Assembly: GCA_004402895.1 (NCBI GenBank)
Contig: SORT01000014.1
Location: 1 to 39,317 of the forward strand
Direction: 5' to 3'
DNA length: 39,317 nt
Source of the DNA: Fidelibacterota bacterium MT.SAG.3
GTDB taxonomy: Bacteria > Fidelibacterota > SORT01
This document shows positions 9,114-28,078 of this stretch, one piece after another; the stretch's first letter is position 1; each line of letters opens with the position of its first letter. The translations under genes were made by a program, and so were the position numbers. Below the pieces are notes generated by a model. It ran no database searches. It saw only the letters and a list, made by a program, of their open reading frames with translations, and was not told where the DNA came from.

Positions 9114-9150
9114 ATCAAAGTTGTCTGTTGATGTGAAGGCAGGAAAAGAA

Positions 9151-10083
9151 GTGTCAAATTCTAAAGAGAAAATAAGATCAATCGCACTTGAATTAGGATT
9201 TACTAATTTTGGTGTCGCGAAGGCAGCACCACTCGAGAAGGAGAAAAAAGCGCTCGAGGAGTGGATTAAGTTTGGACATCATGGCACTATGTCTTGGATG
9301 GAACGAAACAGTGAGTGGAGAACTGATCCTACCAAGTATTTTCCGGGCGCGAAATCTGTTATCTCTCTTGGGATGAACTATTACACACAAAATGATCATT
9401 CTAACGATAGCTCGTACGGAAAGATCTCTAACTATGCCTGGGGAGAGGATTATCATGACATAATCAATGAGCGACTCGGAAAATTGATCGAAGAATTGAA
9501 AAAATTGTTTCCTAATTCAAAGTTCAAAGATTGCTGCGATACAGCTCCGATTATGGAGAAAGTGTGGGCTGAGAAGGCGGGTATCGGCTGGATAGGGAAG
9601 CACACTAATCTTATAACAAAAGAGTTAGGTTCATGGGTCTTCTTAAGTGAGATCATCACCGATCTTGAATTGGAAGAGGATACTCCCGGCATGGATTTTT
9701 GCGGGAGTTGTACCCTGTGCATAGATTCATGTCCGACCGACGCCCTATATGAACCGTACAAATTGGATTCCAAACGTTGTATCTCCTATCTTACGATTGA
9801 GCATAAGGGGAATTTTGATTCAGGTACTCCTTCGCTTGATGGGTGGATCTATGGCTGTGATATTTGCCAACAAGTATGTCCGTGGAATAATTTTCAATCG
9901 GAAACTGAGGAATCTTCATTCCAGCCTTCAGAAATTGGTACCGAATTAGAATTAGAATATGTCAATAACCTGGATGAAGAAGATTTTAAACTCTTATTCA
10001 AGAAAAGTCCAATAAAACGAACAAAGCTGAGCGGTTTAAACCGGAATAAAGAAAAATTAGGTCAAGCCCTAAATGTTGTGTAA
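9151..10083 (+). CDS. queG: Epoxyqueuosine reductase
   Basis: Catalyses the last step of queuosine synthesis on tRNA, using cobalamin and two [4Fe-4S] clusters. Visible signatures are the CCDTAPIMEKVWAEKAGIGW segment with the catalytic Asp, a ferredoxin-like CGSCTLCIDSCP motif, the second-cluster region GCDICQQVCPWN, and the KRCISYLTIEHKG segment. The reading frame is open from TTG 9121, but GTG 9151 has AGGA with six-base spacing and gives MSNSKEKIRSIALELGF, aligned with the usual start, so I prefer it (310 residues). The protein ends shortly after the second cluster and lacks the C-terminal HEAT-like part found in longer QueG proteins, as some bacterial members do. It follows lipA by a short gap and is probably in the same operon. 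Confidence 0.93.
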   Translation: MSNSKEKIRSIALELGFTNFGVAKAAPLEKEKKALEEWIKFGHHGTMSWMERNSEWRTDPTKYFPGAKSVISLGMNYYTQNDHSNDSSYGKISNYAWGEDYHDIINERLGKLIEELKKLFPNSKFKDCCDTAPIMEKVWAEKAGIGWIGKHTNLITKELGSWVFLSEIITDLELEEDTPGMDFCGSCTLCIDSCPTDALYEPYKLDSKRCISYLTIEHKGNFDSGTPSLDGWIYGCDICQQVCPWNNFQSETEESSFQPSEIGTELELEYVNNLDEEDFKLLFKKSPIKRTKLSGLNRNKEKLGQALNVV

Positions 10084-10653
10084 TTTTATCATAAGCGGTT
10101 TGCCGTCGAATGAATTCGGACCTCAAAAAGTTGTAACAACTTCAAAGTTACACTTTAAAGTAGAAGGTTTCACTGAAAATATTGCTTGATCCTCATAAAC
10201 GTATAAGTTCTAAGAGAGTAAAAATGTGTCCGGGAAACTTTCCTTCTCAGAAGAACAGAATGAGATTAATAAAGCTCTTCAAACCCCTGTTTCAACTCCC
10301 GAACGCATGGAATAATTGAAATTATTGGGACATTTAAAACTTTGATATACTCTTTATAATGCTGCATAAGGTAGTCAAAATACATTGGTATAAACGGATG
10401 CATTGCGACTTATGGTAGAATTAAGAATTCTACCATGGCGGCCTATTTTCTTGATAGATTACTCCAATGCTAATAATACGATTGATAGAGAACCACAAAA
10501 CGGTCGATTATGGAACAAATTTCTAAGTTTTCACTCGCACATTAATTTCAATTAGATAATTTTTTAATACTATCTAAAAGGGCTAATGAGTAATATGACT
10601 AGTGATAAGATTAATCGGAGCAGGTCAATGACGAACAAAATGTGGAGGACTAA
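10084..10653. other. Gene-free interval with strong palindromes
   Basis: There is no convincing gene in about 570 bases. Notable are AAGTTGTAACAACTT (10128-10142, 7-1-7 perfect) and AAAGT/ACTTT just after it. A perfect inverted repeat lies at 10412-10436, with 11-base arms ATGGTAGAATT and AATTCTACCAT around AAG and no T-run. The end of the interval provides the ribosome binding site GGAGG (10644-10648) of the repeat protein. Confidence 0.5.
10412..10436. repeat. Perfect 11-base inverted repeat with 3-base loop
   Basis: The arms 10412-10422 and 10426-10436 are exact reverse complements around AAG. There is no following T-run on either strand, so it is not an obvious terminator. An operator, a cruciform or a mobile-element remnant end are possible. 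Confidence 0.6.
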
Positions 10654-11343
10654 TTGGGATTATTAGATAAAGCAGGAAAACTTTTAGAAAAAGCTGCGCG
10701 AGAAGGAGTCATAGCGGGAAAGAAGGCTATTAAGGAGGGGAAGAAAGCTGGCAAGGTATTGGCTCGAGAGGGAGTCATAGCGGGGAAGAAAGCTATCAAG
10801 GAGGGGAAGAAAGCTGGCAAGGTATTGGCAAGAGAGGGAGTCATAGTGGGGAAGATGGCTATCAAGGAGGGGAAGAAAGCTGGCAAGGTATTGGCAAGAG
10901 AGGGAGTCATAGTGGGGAAGATGGCTATCAAGGAGGGGAAGAAAGCTGGCAAGGTATTGGCAAGAGAGGGAGTCATAGTGGGGAAGATGGCTATCAAGGA
11001 GGGGAAGAAAGCTGGCAAGGTATTGGCAAGAGAGGGAGTCATAGTGGGGAAGATGGCTATCAAGGAGGGGAAGAAAGCTGGCAAGGTATTGGCAAGAGAG
11101 GGAGTCATAGTGGGGAAGATGGCTATCAAGGAGGGGAAGAAAGCTGGCAAGGTATTGGCAAGAGAGGGAGTCATAGCGGGGAAGAAAGCTATCAAGGAGG
11201 GGAAGAAAGCTGCTAAGGTATTGGCTGGAGAGGGGTTTATGGCTAAAAAGAAGGTGGTTAAAAAGAGTCTAAAAGCGAGAAAAAAAACTACAGCAAAAAA
11301 AACTATCAAAGGAAAAAAGAAAGTCCCGAAGAAAAGGAAGTGA
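10654..11343 (+). CDS. Lysine-rich protein of eight 22-residue repeats with histone H1-like tail
   Basis: The 229-residue protein has a short N-terminal amphipathic segment (MGLLDKAGKLLEKAA), eight consecutive 22-residue units (residues 16-191), then a very basic tail (KKKVVKKSLKARKKTTAKK... ending KKRK). Each unit splits into two 11-residue halves, REGVIVGKMAI and KEGKKAGKVLA, that align as (K/R)EG..(V/A)GK-hydrophobic. Each unit has six basic and two acidic residues. The tail resembles H1-like bacterial proteins that bind DNA. The 11-residue register resembles the amphipathic 11-mers of synuclein and apolipoproteins, which bind lipid surfaces. Function is unknown; nucleoid or membrane binding are both inference. 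The TTG start at 10654 has GGAGG five bases upstream. No family homologue is recognised beyond the composition. Confidence 0.7.
   Translation: MGLLDKAGKLLEKAAREGVIAGKKAIKEGKKAGKVLAREGVIAGKKAIKEGKKAGKVLAREGVIVGKMAIKEGKKAGKVLAREGVIVGKMAIKEGKKAGKVLAREGVIVGKMAIKEGKKAGKVLAREGVIVGKMAIKEGKKAGKVLAREGVIVGKMAIKEGKKAGKVLAREGVIAGKKAIKEGKKAAKVLAGEGFMAKKKVVKKSLKARKKTTAKKTIKGKKKVPKKRK
10699..11226 (+). repeat. Coding minisatellite, eight 66-base tandem units
   Basis: Units begin at 10699 and every 66 bases thereafter. Units three to seven (10831-11160) appear identical at every base; units one, two and eight differ by a few substitutions. Five identical copies imply recent expansion or continuous homogenisation by slippage or unequal recombination. 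Copy number may therefore vary between strains, always in frame. Confidence 0.95.
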
Positions 11344-11569
11344 GCTAGCGAGGGATCGGCTTGACAAAATAAATCATAATTGGATTTGAGTGTCCGATTC
11401 CAGATGATACTTTTTCGCACTCTCAGATTTAGCAACAAAGCCCATTTCCCAAAACCCATAATTGATGTGCCAAAACAGCGTATCGATCGATAATTCTTAA
11501 TGCTTCAAATTGTTAACCTATTTGGGACTCGACCAAATCCGATGAACCCTTTATTTGAGATATTCTAGA

Positions 11570-11605: not shown

Positions 11606-11680
11606 AGAGAAAGAATATATCTTAGTTTTCATCTCTAAATCCTATACTCTATTTCCATATTTCAATATCAGGAGAACAAT

Positions 11681-12216
11681 TATGCGAAGCCCGGCTATGC
11701 ACGTATGTCGACAGTAGAGCGCAATTCAGAGATGCGGATTTATGCTTCATTTTAAGAAGAGCGCGAAAGAATATTCGAGAACCTGCCAGTGGAGTAAAAT
11801 CTAAACTAGACAGGCTGTAATGGGCAGTGGGATTCATGCATGGAGGTGATACTCTGGTTGTATGGAAGTCAGATAGACAGACCAGATCCCTGAGGCAGCT
11901 ATAGAGATATCATTAACCTTCTTAAAGAGAAGGGGATGAATATCAAGAGTTTGCAGTAAAGCATTGAAACAGGTTCGTCCAGAGAAAACTGCTATTTCAT
12001 CTATTCGACCCCTCAGCGGAATTTGAAAGGGAGATGATATGCGATCGGATAATTGCTCGCATGGCCGTAGCGAGAGAAAGAGGCAGGGTCGTCGGTCGTC
12101 CAAGAAAGCTCAATGAGAATAACAGAGCTCTCGTCTAATCAATAAGGGAAGATAAATCATATTCGGCGAAAGATGTGGGTGACACCCTTGGCTTATAAAA
12201 AACCACTCTATAAAAG
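11681..12216 (+). pseudogene. Hin/Pin-type DNA invertase (serine recombinase), inactivated
   Basis: Piecing frames together recovers most of a resolvase/invertase of about 190 residues. The N-terminus is GYARMSTVERNSEMRIYASF, with the nucleophilic serine in the RxST position. ASGVKSKLDR, then GGDTLVVWKSDR and SLRQL follow, then FHLFDPSAEFEREMICDRII and ARMAVARERGRVVGRPRKL. The end has the helix-turn-helix motif SIREDKSYSAKDVGDTLG. At least four frame changes or stops interrupt it (the first stop is at 11753-11755), so it is dead. Family members invert or resolve DNA between short sites, often to switch surface genes. The nearby repeats were checked, but no matching hix-like pair was identified. 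It lies between the repeat protein and the sigma-like gene. Confidence 0.75.
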
Positions 12217-12315
12217 AAACCTCCAAGAATACAATAATTTAAAGTCCAGGAAAAATAGAAAGAAGAAACTAGGGATGAAGGGAGCTTGATTGAATCAAAC
12301 CACGAAGAGTAACAT

Positions 12316-12393: not shown

Positions 12394-12978
12394 ATGGGAT
12401 ATTTGGATATGTACGCCAAGTTGGATCGACATGCCGACAGGATATCGAGAGGAGACAAAGATCTCAAGCAAGACCTTCTTTGTCTGTCATACACCACATT
12501 TACTTCAGCTTTTTCTCGGAGGTACGAACTATCTCTGGGTGAGCTGGTCAATAACATGCAGCTGCGGGCCAAGGAATTCAGAAGTGAAAAGCGAAGACAC
12601 TTCGGAAACCGAGGATATAACGGAACCAAGGATGTCTATTCGAAAGTTCGATACTACAATGATGATGTCAAGATATTACACTTGAATGGCTCTGAAGCAG
12701 CAGACGATCTGTTGATGGGCCCGTATGATAAGCGAAGAGCGCCCCTAGCTGATGCGATAGCCTTCAGGATTGATTTGGAGAATTTCCTGATTAATCTAAC
12801 AGAGAGAGACCGTTCAATCCTTCTTAAGAGAATTGAGGGGTATCAGGTAAAGGAACTCTCATCACTATTCAATAGTTCGTCCTCAACTATTTCAAAACGC
12901 TTAAAGAGGATAGGAAGAGAGATAACCGTCTCTTTAGATATTCCAAAAGATCTGGCTATCTCCTTTGGAATAAGTTAA
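12394..12978 (+). CDS. Sigma-70-like factor (region 2-like and helix-turn-helix domains)
   Basis: The 194-residue cytoplasmic protein has an N-terminal helical, basic half (MGYLDMYAKLDRHADRIS... ). A polar linker of about 40 residues follows, then a C-terminal sigma-4-like helix-turn-helix (LTERDRSILLKRIEGYQVKE, then LSSLFNSSSSTISKRLKRI). It probably acts as an alternative sigma factor or a sigma-like transcription regulator. No anti-sigma gene is adjacent, and the N-terminal half is too divergent to assign region 2 with certainty. The ATG has GAGGAG seven bases upstream, and a leader able to sequester it precedes. A 6-1-6 palindrome, TTGATTGAATCAA (12286-12298), lies further upstream and might be an operator. 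The gene lies next to the dead invertase and could have arrived with that element. Confidence 0.6.
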   Translation: MGYLDMYAKLDRHADRISRGDKDLKQDLLCLSYTTFTSAFSRRYELSLGELVNNMQLRAKEFRSEKRRHFGNRGYNGTKDVYSKVRYYNDDVKILHLNGSEAADDLLMGPYDKRRAPLADAIAFRIDLENFLINLTERDRSILLKRIEGYQVKELSSLFNSSSSTISKRLKRIGREITVSLDIPKDLAISFGIS

Positions 12979-15060: not shown

Positions 15061-18000
15061 TTGCATTCCGAAAGATTGCATAAACAGCTATTCAGTGTTA
15101 CATCTGTTTTCATTCTGCTGATGTTCCTTTCGATATCCAGTCCTCTTCTTGCGCAAACGGAATCTGGCCGATCTAAGGCACAGAAGGAAGCTCTGAAGGA
15201 ACAGATCATAATTTCAGGAAAGTCAGAGGCAGAGATCAAAGAGCAGTTAATTCGATCAGGTATGTCTGATGCCGAGATTCAGAGTCATATGGAGAGCCTA
15301 CAAAAATCCGATCAATTGCCAGATAGCTTAGATCTGGTTCTATTTGAGTCAATTGCTGATACTGCTGATACTGCTGATGTTGCGAAGGAAGAGTTTGATG
15401 AGTTGTCTCAATTTGATGAATTTGATGATATTGAAGAAGAAATACCAATTTTGATAGAGGAGCCAATCGCCGAAGAAGTCCTGAGACCGTTCGGATATGA
15501 GATATTCAATCTTTCACCGAAAACATTTGAGCCGTTGGAGGGCGGACCGGTTGATCCAAACTATCCGTTAGGGCCCGGAGATGAGATAGTCCTCACTCTC
15601 TGGGGAGACACAGAGCAATTTCACCGGTTACGGATCGACAGAGAAGGGAAGATACTGATACCCGATATCGGGCAGGTGGTAATCACCGGTCTGACATTGG
15701 AAAGAGCGGAAGAAAAGATAAAAAATCGACTCTCAGGCGTATACTCAGGGCTTGATCCCTTTTCAGGATCTCAGAGCACTTTTTTTGATCTCTCTATGGG
15801 AAAACTACGCTCTATCAGAATATTCATTATGGGTGAGGTAAAGAGGCCTGGTGGGTACACAATGCGCGCGACCGTTACAGCGTTCAACGCGCTCTACTAT
15901 GGTGGGGGACCAAACCAAAGAGGCTCATTACGAAACATAAGAATTATAAGAGATGGCAAAACAATAAATAGAATGGATCTTTATAGCTATCTGTTATATG
16001 GAAAGACTGAAGAGGACATGAGGCTTCAGGATGGGGATGCTATATTTGTACCGATTAGGGGGCGTATGGTTGCTATTAAAGGAGAAATAAACGCGCCTGC
16101 TTTCTATGAACTAAAACCATGGGATAAGCTCCGAAATTTACTTTCTTTAGCGCGAGGACTTAAAGCGACCGCCTATATAGATAGGATACAAATCGATAGG
16201 ATTGTCCCCTTTGAGGAGAGAGAATCATATCCGCAAGAACGGAAGATCATTGATATTGATTATAAATCTTATATAAAGGATAAAGATAAAGATTTTCAGC
16301 TGGTAGATGGTGATGTCATATCAGTGTTTTCAATATTGGACGTTAAGATGAATCTCGTGAACATCGCTGGGTCCGTTACTCGACCCGGCACATATGAATG
16401 GAACGAAGAGATGCGTTTAACAGACCTCATCGAGAAAGCTGATGGCGTATTAGGCGAGATTTATTTGGATAGGGTGGATATCACCAGAACAAAATTGGAT
16501 CTTACAAAGCAGCTGATACGAATTGATTTAGGACTGGCAATGTCCGGCGACAGCACTCAAAATTTACTTTTACAGGAGCTGGATGAAGTTAGAATATATT
16601 CTATTCATGAGATCGAAGGATCTTACAGTGTCACCATTAGAGGTCAAGTAAAAAACCCTGGCAGATATCCGCTTTTAGAAGATATGAACCTTTATGACCT
16701 ATTGTTTAAGGCGGGAGGAATGCTTGATCCCGCGTATATGAAGAATACGTATCTTGAAAGAGCTGATATTATCAGAATCGGAGATAACTCGCTCAAAAAA
16801 GACCTCATTACATTTAATCTTGGAAAACTTTTAGACGGGGATCAAAACGAAAATATTGGCCTACAGAACCAAGATGAAATTTTCATCTATTCTATGACCG
16901 ATGTAGAAGGTCAACCTTCTGTAAGAGTTTCAGGTCATGTGAAACGCCCAGGTCGTTATCGGTTCCAAGATAATATGACCATTTATGACCTTCTGTTCAA
17001 GGCGGGTGGTATGTTAGACGAAGATTTCAGAAAGGAAACCTATTTAGAACGAGCGGATCTGCTAAGGCTGAATGACGACGGGATTACACGTACAACAATT
17101 CCCATTCACATTGGTCATGTTCTATTAAGGGATCCTAAAGAAAATATACATTTAATTGATAATGATGAGCTGATAGTATATGATATTTTTACCGTCGAAC
17201 GAAAAAAGTTTGTCACGATTACAGGTAGAGTAAAAAGACCTGGACAAATTGAACTAACTGATGGTATGTCTCTAAAGGATCTATTGATGAGAGCCGGAGG
17301 TTACACTAATGACGCATTCCGTTTTCATGCCGAAGTGGCGAGAATTGATCCCTTTAACTTAAGTGAAAAATCCTTGGCAGACATCATCAAAGTCGAACTG
17401 CCTAAAACACTCTCTGAGGTTCGTCTTGGTGACCAGGGATTCCTGCTGAAGGAATATGACAGAATAACAATCATGAGACATCCGAATTGGCAGCTTCAGC
17501 GAACCGTTACAATCTCTGGTGAAGTGAATTTCCCGGGAGAGTACTCCCTAAAAGATAAGGACGAAAAGTTATCTGATTTGGTGAAAAGAGCTGGAGGAAT
17601 GAGCTCTGAGGCATTTGAAGAAGGAGCAAGGTTTACACGAGATGGTCAGAGAGTAATATTTGATCTGAACAAAGCGCTTAAATCAAACTCCTCAAAAGAT
17701 GATATCGTTCTTCGCCCTGGAGACAGTATCACAATTCCGAATAATCCAATGGTTGTGTCCCTTAGCGGGGCGCTGCAAACTCCAGGTCTTCTGAAGTATA
17801 TACCAGAAAAGAAGTCAATGTATTATATTGATCGGGTAGGTGGCTTTGTGAAGGATGCCGATCGAAGGAGCGTCTTAATTACCCGTGCAAATGGGCGAGT
17901 GGATGTCGGTATCAAACGGTTTTGGTGGGATCCGAAAGTGAATGAAGGGGATCAAATCAGAGTAGCCTTAAAAGAAAAGAAAGAGCCATTTGATATGAGC

Positions 18001-18078
18001 GTATTTCTTAAAGAGACAGCGAGTATAGCGGCAAGTTTTGCAACAGTTATTTTTGTAATATCCCAATCATCAAAATGA
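15061..18078 (+). CDS. Polysaccharide export protein with eight SLBB domains
   Basis: The large exported protein has 1005 residues from TTG 15061. An N-terminal signal (VFILLMFLSISSPLLAQ) is followed by a charged helical stretch (SEAEIKEQLIRSGMSDAEI). After an acidic linker comes a poly-export domain (PLGPGDEIVLTLWG...GKILIPDIGQVVITG). At least eight SLBB repeats follow, each opening with a strand like VTIRGQVKNPGRY and a later LL.KAGG. A last hydrophobic helix (SIAASFATVIFVI) is near the C-terminus. Wza-type proteins have two or three SLBB domains, so this is an expanded form; long versions occur in FCB bacteria. It likely forms a periplasm-spanning or outer-membrane conduit for polysaccharide. 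The only good ribosome binding site lies before an in-frame ATC at 15025, so the true N-terminus may be 12 residues longer. Confidence 0.88.
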   Translation: MHSERLHKQLFSVTSVFILLMFLSISSPLLAQTESGRSKAQKEALKEQIIISGKSEAEIKEQLIRSGMSDAEIQSHMESLQKSDQLPDSLDLVLFESIADTADTADVAKEEFDELSQFDEFDDIEEEIPILIEEPIAEEVLRPFGYEIFNLSPKTFEPLEGGPVDPNYPLGPGDEIVLTLWGDTEQFHRLRIDREGKILIPDIGQVVITGLTLERAEEKIKNRLSGVYSGLDPFSGSQSTFFDLSMGKLRSIRIFIMGEVKRPGGYTMRATVTAFNALYYGGGPNQRGSLRNIRIIRDGKTINRMDLYSYLLYGKTEEDMRLQDGDAIFVPIRGRMVAIKGEINAPAFYELKPWDKLRNLLSLARGLKATAYIDRIQIDRIVPFEERESYPQERKIIDIDYKSYIKDKDKDFQLVDGDVISVFSILDVKMNLVNIAGSVTRPGTYEWNEEMRLTDLIEKADGVLGEIYLDRVDITRTKLDLTKQLIRIDLGLAMSGDSTQNLLLQELDEVRIYSIHEIEGSYSVTIRGQVKNPGRYPLLEDMNLYDLLFKAGGMLDPAYMKNTYLERADIIRIGDNSLKKDLITFNLGKLLDGDQNENIGLQNQDEIFIYSMTDVEGQPSVRVSGHVKRPGRYRFQDNMTIYDLLFKAGGMLDEDFRKETYLERADLLRLNDDGITRTTIPIHIGHVLLRDPKENIHLIDNDELIVYDIFTVERKKFVTITGRVKRPGQIELTDGMSLKDLLMRAGGYTNDAFRFHAEVARIDPFNLSEKSLADIIKVELPKTLSEVRLGDQGFLLKEYDRITIMRHPNWQLQRTVTISGEVNFPGEYSLKDKDEKLSDLVKRAGGMSSEAFEEGARFTRDGQRVIFDLNKALKSNSSKDDIVLRPGDSITIPNNPMVVSLSGALQTPGLLKYIPEKKSMYYIDRVGGFVKDADRRSVLITRANGRVDVGIKRFWWDPKVNEGDQIRVALKEKKEPFDMSVFLKETASIAASFATVIFVISQSSK

Positions 18079-19070: not shown

Positions 19071-19958
19071 ATGAAGAAAGTTTATGTAGGTATGGCAGCT
19101 GATCTAATTCACCCTGGACATTTAAACATAATAATGGAAGCAAAACAACTCGGATACGTCATTGTTGGCTTATTAACTGATGAAGCCATAGCTAGTTATA
19201 AACGTATTCCATTTCTTTCATATGATCAAAGGAAACTGATTGTAGAAAATATAAAAGGCGTTGATGAAGTAATATCTCAAAAAACTTTAGATTATGTACC
19301 TAATCTTAAGAAAATAAAACCTGATTATGTCGTCCATGGAGATGACTGGAAGATTGGAATACAAAAAGAAGTTCGTCGAGAGGTGATCGATACCATTAAA
19401 GCGTGGGGTGGAAAATTGGTAGAGACAGCCTATACAAAAGGAATATCATCAACACAACTAATAAGAGCAGTGACAGAAAGGGGTATTACTCCCGATAAAA
19501 GGCTTAAGAGTTTGAAGATACTATTGAATATAAAGCCTATTTTAAGATCGCTCGAAGCTCATAATGGGGTAACCGGATTAATTGTAAATAATACAAAAAT
19601 AGAACGTAATGGTGAAACAAGAGAATTTGATATCATTTGGTTAAGCAGCTTGACACTTTCGACTGCAAAAGGTAAACCAGATACTGAGATAGTTGATTTT
19701 TCCTCTAGGTTTCAAATTATCGAGGAGATACTAGAAGTAACTACAAAGCCCATAATAGTGGACGGAGATACAGGAGGGAATACGGAACAATTTAAATTTC
19801 GTGTAAGGACGTTAGAGCGGCTTGGTGTATCGGCGATAATTATAGAAGATAAAGTCGGATTGAAACGTAATTCATTGTTTGGAACGAACGTAAAACAAGA
19901 ACAGGAGACCATTGAAAATTTCTGCGAAAAGATTCGAGAGGGAAATATATCACATTAG
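19071..19958 (+). pseudogene. Cytidylyltransferase-PEP mutase fusion, truncated at the C-terminus
   Basis: The 295-residue frame has an N-terminal nucleotidyltransferase domain (1-130) with HPGH at 14-17 and ISSTQLIR near 125-132. A phosphoenolpyruvate phosphomutase domain follows. The latter keeps [30 protein letters not shown] and the PepM hallmark EDK-X5-NS ([10 protein letters not shown], 259-268). PEP mutase makes the C-P bond of phosphonopyruvate in phosphonate synthesis; fused forms are normally about 430 residues. The sequence ends after FCEKIREGN, where it joins a copy of the small gene seen at the window start, so about 140 residues of the barrel are missing. It is almost certainly inactive as a mutase; the nucleotidyltransferase half could still fold. 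No Ppd or aminotransferase partner is near. Confidence 0.8.
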
Positions 19959-27121: not shown

Positions 27122-28078
27122 ATGTCCTTAACGCCATCTGCGAATAGCTCATCAGAGATACCTGATTCCTTAAAGGTAATAAAATTATCTTCAGGTCATG
27201 ATGCCCGAGACCCCGTTATATTCAATATTGAATCGGAAGAACCGTTAAATCTGGACATTACACTCTCAAGCGGGCAAACCTTCAGGTGGGAAAAAGAAGA
27301 TCCGGATTGGTGGGGAGGTATAATAAAGGGTAACAGAGTTTTCCTAAGACAAGTAGAAATAAATAAATCTGCTATCCGGCTTGAGTGCAAGCTGTCACCT
27401 TCGGTAAAGCAGACAAACTTGTTAGAAAATTATTTCAACCTAAATAAGAATTACACTGAAATTTACTCAGCTTTTGAGGGTGATCCTATTCTGAAATTAG
27501 CCGCCCTGAAGTACAGAGGACTGCGGTTGCTTGCGCAAGACCCTTGGGAGATGCTCATCTCATTTATTCTTTCCTCAGCGAGCAATATACCCCGTATCAG
27601 GGGTAATATTAAAAGAATGTGCGAAGAATTCGGCGATAAAAAATTTGATGTTTTTGGAGAGTTTCACTCATTCCCGTCAAGCAGTGTATTAGCATCAGCT
27701 TCGATAGATGATTTTAAGAGTTTGGGTTTCGGATTCAGAGCGTCATACGTTTGGGAAACATCTCTGAAAATAGCCGAAGATCCAGGCTTCCTCTCAAAGA
27801 TAGCAAGCCTTCCCTATATTGAAGCAAAAGATGAGCTGTGTAAGCTTTCCGGCGTAGGTGAAAAGATAGCTGACTGTGTTTTACTATTCGGTTTCGACAG
27901 GCTTGAAAGTTTCCCTGTAGATACATGGATAAAGAAGATCGTCGAACGCTATTATTTTGATGGAAGAGCTATCCCCGTTAAAAAATTAGCGGAATTCGGC
28001 CGAGAACAGTTTGGGGATTACGCCGGTGTAGCCCAGCAATACCTATTTGAGTATGCGAGAGGATTGGAATCAGAATAG
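27122..28078 (+). CDS. 8-oxoguanine DNA glycosylase/AP lyase, eukaryotic OGG1-type
   Basis: The 318-residue protein has an OGG_N-like domain (LDITLSSGQTFRWEKED...WWGG) and a HhH-GPD domain. The hairpin and active site read LSGVGEKIADC with the Schiff-base lysine K248, followed by FPVDTW with the catalytic D267. Their spacing matches human K249/D268. It removes 8-oxoguanine opposite cytosine and nicks the abasic site. AQDPWEMLISFILSSASNI corresponds to the helix that reads the opposite base. The Cys expected near the lysine for 8-oxoG packing in the human enzyme is not clear here. Placement behind nrdJ links nucleotide supply with oxidative DNA repair. The gene converges on frr with only seven bases between the stops. 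Confidence 0.9.
   Translation: MSLTPSANSSSEIPDSLKVIKLSSGHDARDPVIFNIESEEPLNLDITLSSGQTFRWEKEDPDWWGGIIKGNRVFLRQVEINKSAIRLECKLSPSVKQTNLLENYFNLNKNYTEIYSAFEGDPILKLAALKYRGLRLLAQDPWEMLISFILSSASNIPRIRGNIKRMCEEFGDKKFDVFGEFHSFPSSSVLASASIDDFKSLGFGFRASYVWETSLKIAEDPGFLSKIASLPYIEAKDELCKLSGVGEKIADCVLLFGFDRLESFPVDTWIKKIVERYYFDGRAIPVKKLAEFGREQFGDYAGVAQQYLFEYARGLESE

Follow-up and report, generated by a model that had tools for sequence, protein, structure and literature searches.

A lineage-restricted 22-residue repeat protein, probably of the histone H1-like kind, in two sister Marinimicrobia species

What a tandem array of 66-nt units may encode is the question raised by an ORF of a Marinimicrobia representative (a marine bacterium), located within a contig of 39,317 nt, which was analysed at its full length and is called the window here. 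The window belongs to a genome assembly of 1.75 Mb in 116 contigs that is 69% complete. The first-pass annotation, made from the sequence of the window, interpreted the product as a protein of 11/22-residue amphipathic repeats with a synuclein-like register and a histone H1-like tail, and it left the choice between a nucleoid-compacting, a membrane-coating and a stress-related role. We asked whether the gene is real, to whom it is related and which of these roles fits it best.

The predicted protein consists of a 15-residue leader, eight 22-residue units and a Lys-rich tail (Table 1). Tandem Repeats Finder detects the array at 10700-11234 with a period of 66, 8.1 copies, 96% matches and a score of 951; as DNA, the 66-nt array is far above chance expectation. 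Both this program and the unit alignment bear out the eight units described previously, five of which (units 3-7) are the same in all 66 nt. The remaining units 1, 2 and 8 read ...VIAGKKAI..., i.e., differ at two positions by A/K in place of V/M; in unit 8 one G is also replaced by A (KKAAK). The protein is very basic (pI 10.7, 27.5% Lys). Its net charge of +54 is composed mainly of +35 in the array (+4 to +5 per unit) and +18 in the 39-residue tail, so the positive charge of the units and the H1-like character of the tail were noted correctly. Hydrophobic residues make up 41-45% of the units. There is just one Pro among the 229 residues, hence the KPAA-type H1-like C-terminal repeats are absent.

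Table 1. Features of the repeat gene and their positions in the window
Feature	Position	Strand	Remarks
Shine-Dalgarno site GGAGG	10644..10648	+	5 nt upstream of the start codon; same in the sister genome
Repeat protein gene, 229 aa	10654..11343	+	TTG start (sister: ATG); dN/dS 0.15
Leader, residues 1-15, MGLLDKAGKLLEKAA	10654..10698	+	protein identical in the sister
Array, eight 66-nt / 22-aa units	10699..11226	+	Tandem Repeats Finder and unit alignment
Five DNA-identical units, V/M variant, REGVIVGKMAIKEGKKAGKVLA	10831..11160	+	amplification confined to the window lineage
Lys-rich H1-like tail and stop codon	11227..11343	+	1 substitution (Met to Ile) in 117 nt vs sister; no Pfam match

Among the first 61 genomes searched, the gene was present in one other, which belongs to the same genus. 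This ortholog is located on contig SORU01000022.1 of Candidatus Marinimicrobia bacterium MT.SAG.2, where the flanking gene order is conserved on both sides and DNA identity to the window is about 93-94%. The sister ORF is intact: its ATG occupies the same start position, and the leader, tail, ribosome binding site and stop codon are all as in the window. The two proteins are 96% identical where aligned. The sister one has 163 aa instead of 229, i.e., five units against eight, although both counts come from draft assemblies and may be wrong, because five identical 66-bp units exceed the short-read length. The difference is exactly 66 aa, or three units. The array had been expected to be young and variable in copy number, and the sister genome supports this.

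In the aligned codons of the two repeat genes dS is 0.148 and dN is 0.0215, a ratio close to those of nearby genes; the corresponding dN/dS ratios of the neighbouring lipA, queG and odhB are 0.07, 0.07 and 0.14. Since units copy one another, only distinct differences were counted among the 13 units of both genomes, giving eight synonymous and three non-synonymous ones (p = 0.001 against uniform mutation). This substitution pattern shows the repeat gene to be under purifying selection. The log codon-frequency score of the sense frame is 0.19, within the range of the neighbouring genes (0.04-0.23). An antisense ORF (10650-11459, 269 aa) shares wobble positions with the sense frame and hence also appears constrained. 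It was rejected as the coding frame, as it has no Shine-Dalgarno site, a lower codon score (-0.05) and one extra non-synonymous change; a CGA/AGA change is silent in the sense frame and exchanges Arg and Leu in the antisense ORF.

As 66 is a multiple of three, an open frame by itself proves little, and the locus might be a spurious or dying ORF, a tandem array that happens to stay open where genes are sparse and the mobile genes on either side are decayed. Such an origin would agree with the TTG start, the open antisense frame, the absence of the gene from nearly all relatives and the flanks, which hold a broken serine recombinase and remnant sequence lacking an intact ORF. What speaks for coding is the ortholog, together with the Shine-Dalgarno site and the pattern of substitutions. 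Neither absence from all relatives nor frame-breaking copy changes were observed; the ortholog differs by whole units only and shares everything from the ribosome binding site to the stop codon, while the synonymous excess and the codon score are those of a translated frame. Judging from this comparison, the ORF is very probably a real gene, and a spurious origin is quite unlikely.

The two arrays are built of different units. The V/M unit was amplified to five copies in the window lineage, while the sister array includes four A/K-variant units (three identical, the fourth different only at its last base) and one AGKM unit. As different unit variants were amplified in each sister, the arrays were rebuilt separately in these close relatives, with the frame, leader and tail retained. 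Unit number would drift in whole 66-nt steps via slippage or recombination, leaving the frame intact. Independent amplification of different variants in two sister species constitutes a natural test of what is selected, length and charge or the exact sequence.

No homologs beyond the two sisters were found across 245 genomes of the phylum, where the other matches were weak (best E 0.0099). The repeat gene is absent from the closest 96%-complete congener (G001) and is thus dispensable. G001 and another genome, G004, had no lipA or queG match either, so synteny is unreadable there; in G003 lipA and queG are located together, and the repeat gene was not found. Searches of 396 genomes from the phylum of a Bacteroidetes MAG, 400 genomes from the phylum of an Anaerolineales MAG, and phage, plasmid and viral-contig collections gave no homolog, all three being weak blanks run without a positive control. 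The same result was obtained with 25 further assorted genomes, three of them Neomarinimicrobiota (the outside-phylum part again had no positive control). Across the genomes covered, the repeat gene is lineage-restricted and common to two sister species only.

The expectation that the protein would fit no known family was confirmed as well. PDB sequence and NCBIfam searches gave no match, and Pfam searches with the full protein (E up to 1) and with reduced constructs (E up to 10) found no match to the synuclein, LEA, apolipoprotein repeat or chlamydial histone-like models, which the first-pass annotation had considered worth comparing. No DNA-binding family was matched in Pfam or NCBIfam. Three kinds of hits were discarded: YfeC-like (PF07037), which scored 24.5 bits with the whole protein through summation over the repeats, had no single stretch passing and was gone with a two-unit construct; DUF3659 and Hyd_WA, whose scores were summed over the repeats and were lost in the two-unit construct; and weak PHROG matches, an artefact of the same summation.

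The claimed synuclein-like register would imply a lipid-surface protein, in which the 11/22-mers would fold into an extended 3-11 amphipathic helix lying on an anionic membrane or lipid bodies, and the N-terminal helix would help to anchor it, convergent with synuclein and perilipin 4. If true, bacteria would have converged on synuclein-type helices. The 11/22 periodicity is indeed strict and free of indels, and the (K/R)EGV..(V/A)G resemblance to the synuclein motif is literally present, in one of the two 11-mers only. Clear amphipathicity is confined to residues 1-18 (muH 0.49; p = 0.011 compared with shuffles), and the sister protein is modelled as a helix (see below). The perilipin 4 amphipathic region is also a long indel-free array of 11-mer multiples with a weak, net positive helix, and the example of Plin4 shows that avidity can bring about binding even when the repeated helices are weak (PMC5889406). 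However, the hydrophobic moment of our array as a 3-11 helix (0.23-0.24, Fauchere-Pliska scale) is below every entry of the published table of lipid-binding helices, i.e., Plin4 (0.257, called the smallest known), alpha-synuclein (0.30), Plin3 (0.35) and apoA-I (0.39) (PMC5889406). Random permutation of the unit gives a moment at least as high in 29% of cases (p about 0.29), which leaves an amphipathic character of the repeat unproven. The charged fraction of the array is 0.36-0.41 against 0.15-0.24 in Plin4, Plin3 and synuclein, and in four of the five sister units position 9 is occupied by Lys instead of Met, making the helix less hydrophobic. The perilipin 4 region carries +1 per 33 residues, far from the value per 22 residues found here, has a charged fraction of 0.15 and no detected homology to the repeat protein. 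Synucleins share the 11-residue periodicity and the KEGV-type motif, but the window protein is far more positive, its tail is Lys-rich and not acidic, and there is no sequence match. No PHA synthase was found in the family genomes searched. Thus, the motif part of the claimed register stands, while its amphipathic part is weakened: the synuclein parallel is a weak, motif-level resemblance that the quantitative tests do not support, and a lipid-surface role is unlikely. A long 3-11 helix of cationic 11-mers that arose independently of synucleins and perilipins could also be imagined to lie on anionic membranes or lipid bodies with the tail holding the nucleoid and the unit number tuning membrane-DNA contact; such an arrangement is distinctly improbable.

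The remaining alternatives concern the fold and the partners of the protein. In the charge-hydropathy plot both whole proteins and the tail fall on the disordered side, and the V/M array is on the line. AlphaFold2 gave a beta-solenoid with repeated strands for the window protein (mean pLDDT 62, local up to about 81) and one helix spanning residues 4-153 for the sister protein (mean pLDDT 73); the input was just two sequences, and neither model is strong evidence. A real solenoid would make every 22-residue unit one coil of a cationic beta-helix, but the close ortholog comes out as a helix, the five window-protein models disagree, with confidence going from 62 down to 45, and AlphaFold2 is known to give confident false solenoids for perfect repeats (PMC11795689). 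Foldseek comparison with PDB has found nothing significant and no fold match at E below 0.09. The solenoid is therefore extremely improbable, and a helix formed on binding is more likely. An LEA-type stress or desiccation protectant, folding into a hydrophilic helix on drying or crowding, would have the 11-mer periodicity, high charge and predicted disorder seen here; yet LEA 11-mers are K/E mixtures close to charge-neutral, quite different from an array with a net charge of +35, and no LEA family was matched, which makes this role hardly credible. Another candidate role is that of a granule-to-nucleoid tether similar to PhaF and AlgP, with the N-terminal helix attached to a storage granule and the cationic region to DNA or polyphosphate. 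It is suggested by the common layout, an amphipathic or helical N-terminus followed by long H1-like cationic repeats (PMC9239181). The net charges of AlgP (+55) and the window protein are nearly equal. On the other hand, the AlgP/PhaF repeats are Pro-rich KPAA ones, the N-terminal domain of these proteins is separate and larger, and their granule partners are polyphosphate and PHA. PhaC_N and PP_kinase profiles had no match in five family genomes, namely the window genome, two congeners and two other family members, three of which are 96% complete and two 66-69% complete. As neither PHA synthase nor polyphosphate kinase was found, a granule role is very unlikely.

We consider it slightly more probable than its negation that the gene codes for a real cytoplasmic protein, restricted to this lineage and histone H1-like in function, which acts through nucleic acid binding. 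By analogy with the H1-like proteins of other bacteria, its most likely role is the coating of DNA or RNA rather than that of a bacterial synuclein. The high pI, the net charge (+54 in the window and +43 in the sister protein), the position on the disordered side of the charge-hydropathy plot and the helical model of the sister protein argue for this assignment; a hydrophobic content above that needed by a plain electrostatic binder, the missing match to DNA-binding families, the HU-family genes that the genome already has, the dispensability of the gene and the lack of an adjoining partner gene argue against it. The short amphipathic leader would open a long, strongly cationic array that is probably disordered while free and becomes helical on binding, and the Lys-rich disordered tail would close the protein. 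The charge of the units and the tail suggests that it binds along DNA (or RNA) through multivalent electrostatic contacts, nucleic acid being proposed as the partner from charge alone. Unit number would then set the polycation length and avidity and, presumably, how far the nucleoid is compacted or condensed. All five family genomes carry HU-family genes (about five of them in the window genome), so the repeat protein would be an accessory one.

The function proposed for the repeat protein is drawn from its composition and from analogy with several known systems; it would work like Hc2, BpH1 or AlgP and is homologous to none of them. Hc2 (HctB) of Chlamydia binds DNA and varies from 165 to 237 aa depending on the repeat number, and Bordetella BpH1 has 182-206 aa and is dispensable (PMC2848022); AlgP has a KPAA-repeat DNA-binding tail (PMC9239181). 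Like Hc2 and BpH1, the sister proteins are small, Lys-rich and H1-like, and their size depends on how many in-frame repeats they have; their 163 and 229 aa lie close to the span of Hc2. The copy-number variation of Lys-rich repeats, a trait of Hc1/Hc2, is seen between the sisters. Unlike them, they have no HMM match, and the units are 22-mers with Glu, Gly and abundant hydrophobic residues instead of Lys-rich pentamers. The first-pass annotation expected a kind of protein not described in the phylum. The sequence is new indeed, but the kind, variable-copy H1-like Lys-rich repeat proteins, is a known one. The putative addition to it comes from an uncultured phylum: a genus-restricted H1-like cationic repeat protein, unrelated in sequence, whose 22-residue unit is probably helical and takes the place of short Lys/Ala/Pro-type repeats.

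The repeat gene is solitary and located between queG (9121-10083) and remnant sequence. Downstream of it, at about 11660-12230 (+), lies what remains of a serine recombinase gene (resolvase/invertase), interrupted by several stops; when these are read as X, Pfam Resolvase matches at E 2e-8. The upstream 570 nt (10084-10653) contain no intact ORF and are 98.2% identical between the sisters; this exceeds the value for the flanking coding genes (about 95.8%) and is far above that of their synonymous sites (dS 0.15-0.18). The segment could be what is left of a gene (one frame is interrupted by several stops) or some conserved element. The flanks of the repeat gene have no Rfam match, and the 5' flank folds no better than shuffled sequences (z -0.25). 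Taken together, the surroundings suggest a mobile-element landing site, which would fit the patchy distribution of the gene.

Some other features were noticed in the same window. A motif some 100 nt long, with TAAAAATGTGTC at its end (about 10131-10230), is dispersed over both strands in all five family genomes with 71-87% identity and is possibly an old mobile-element end or a shared regulatory repeat. A 194-aa ORF at 12394-12978 (+) matches sigma-70 region 4 weakly, at an E of 2e-5 that falls just short of the cut-off, and has a dN/dS of 0.13 against the sister. The polysaccharide export protein encoded at 15061-18078 (+) has 1005 aa and eight SLBB stretches, forming a long domain tandem. 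At 19071-19958 (+), a cytidylyltransferase-like domain is followed by a PEP mutase domain that covers profile positions 10-128 of 240 only, so this fusion seems to be cut short. Finally, an Ogg-type 8-oxoguanine glycosylase gene (27122-28078, +) directly follows the gene of an adenosylcobalamin-dependent ribonucleotide reductase.
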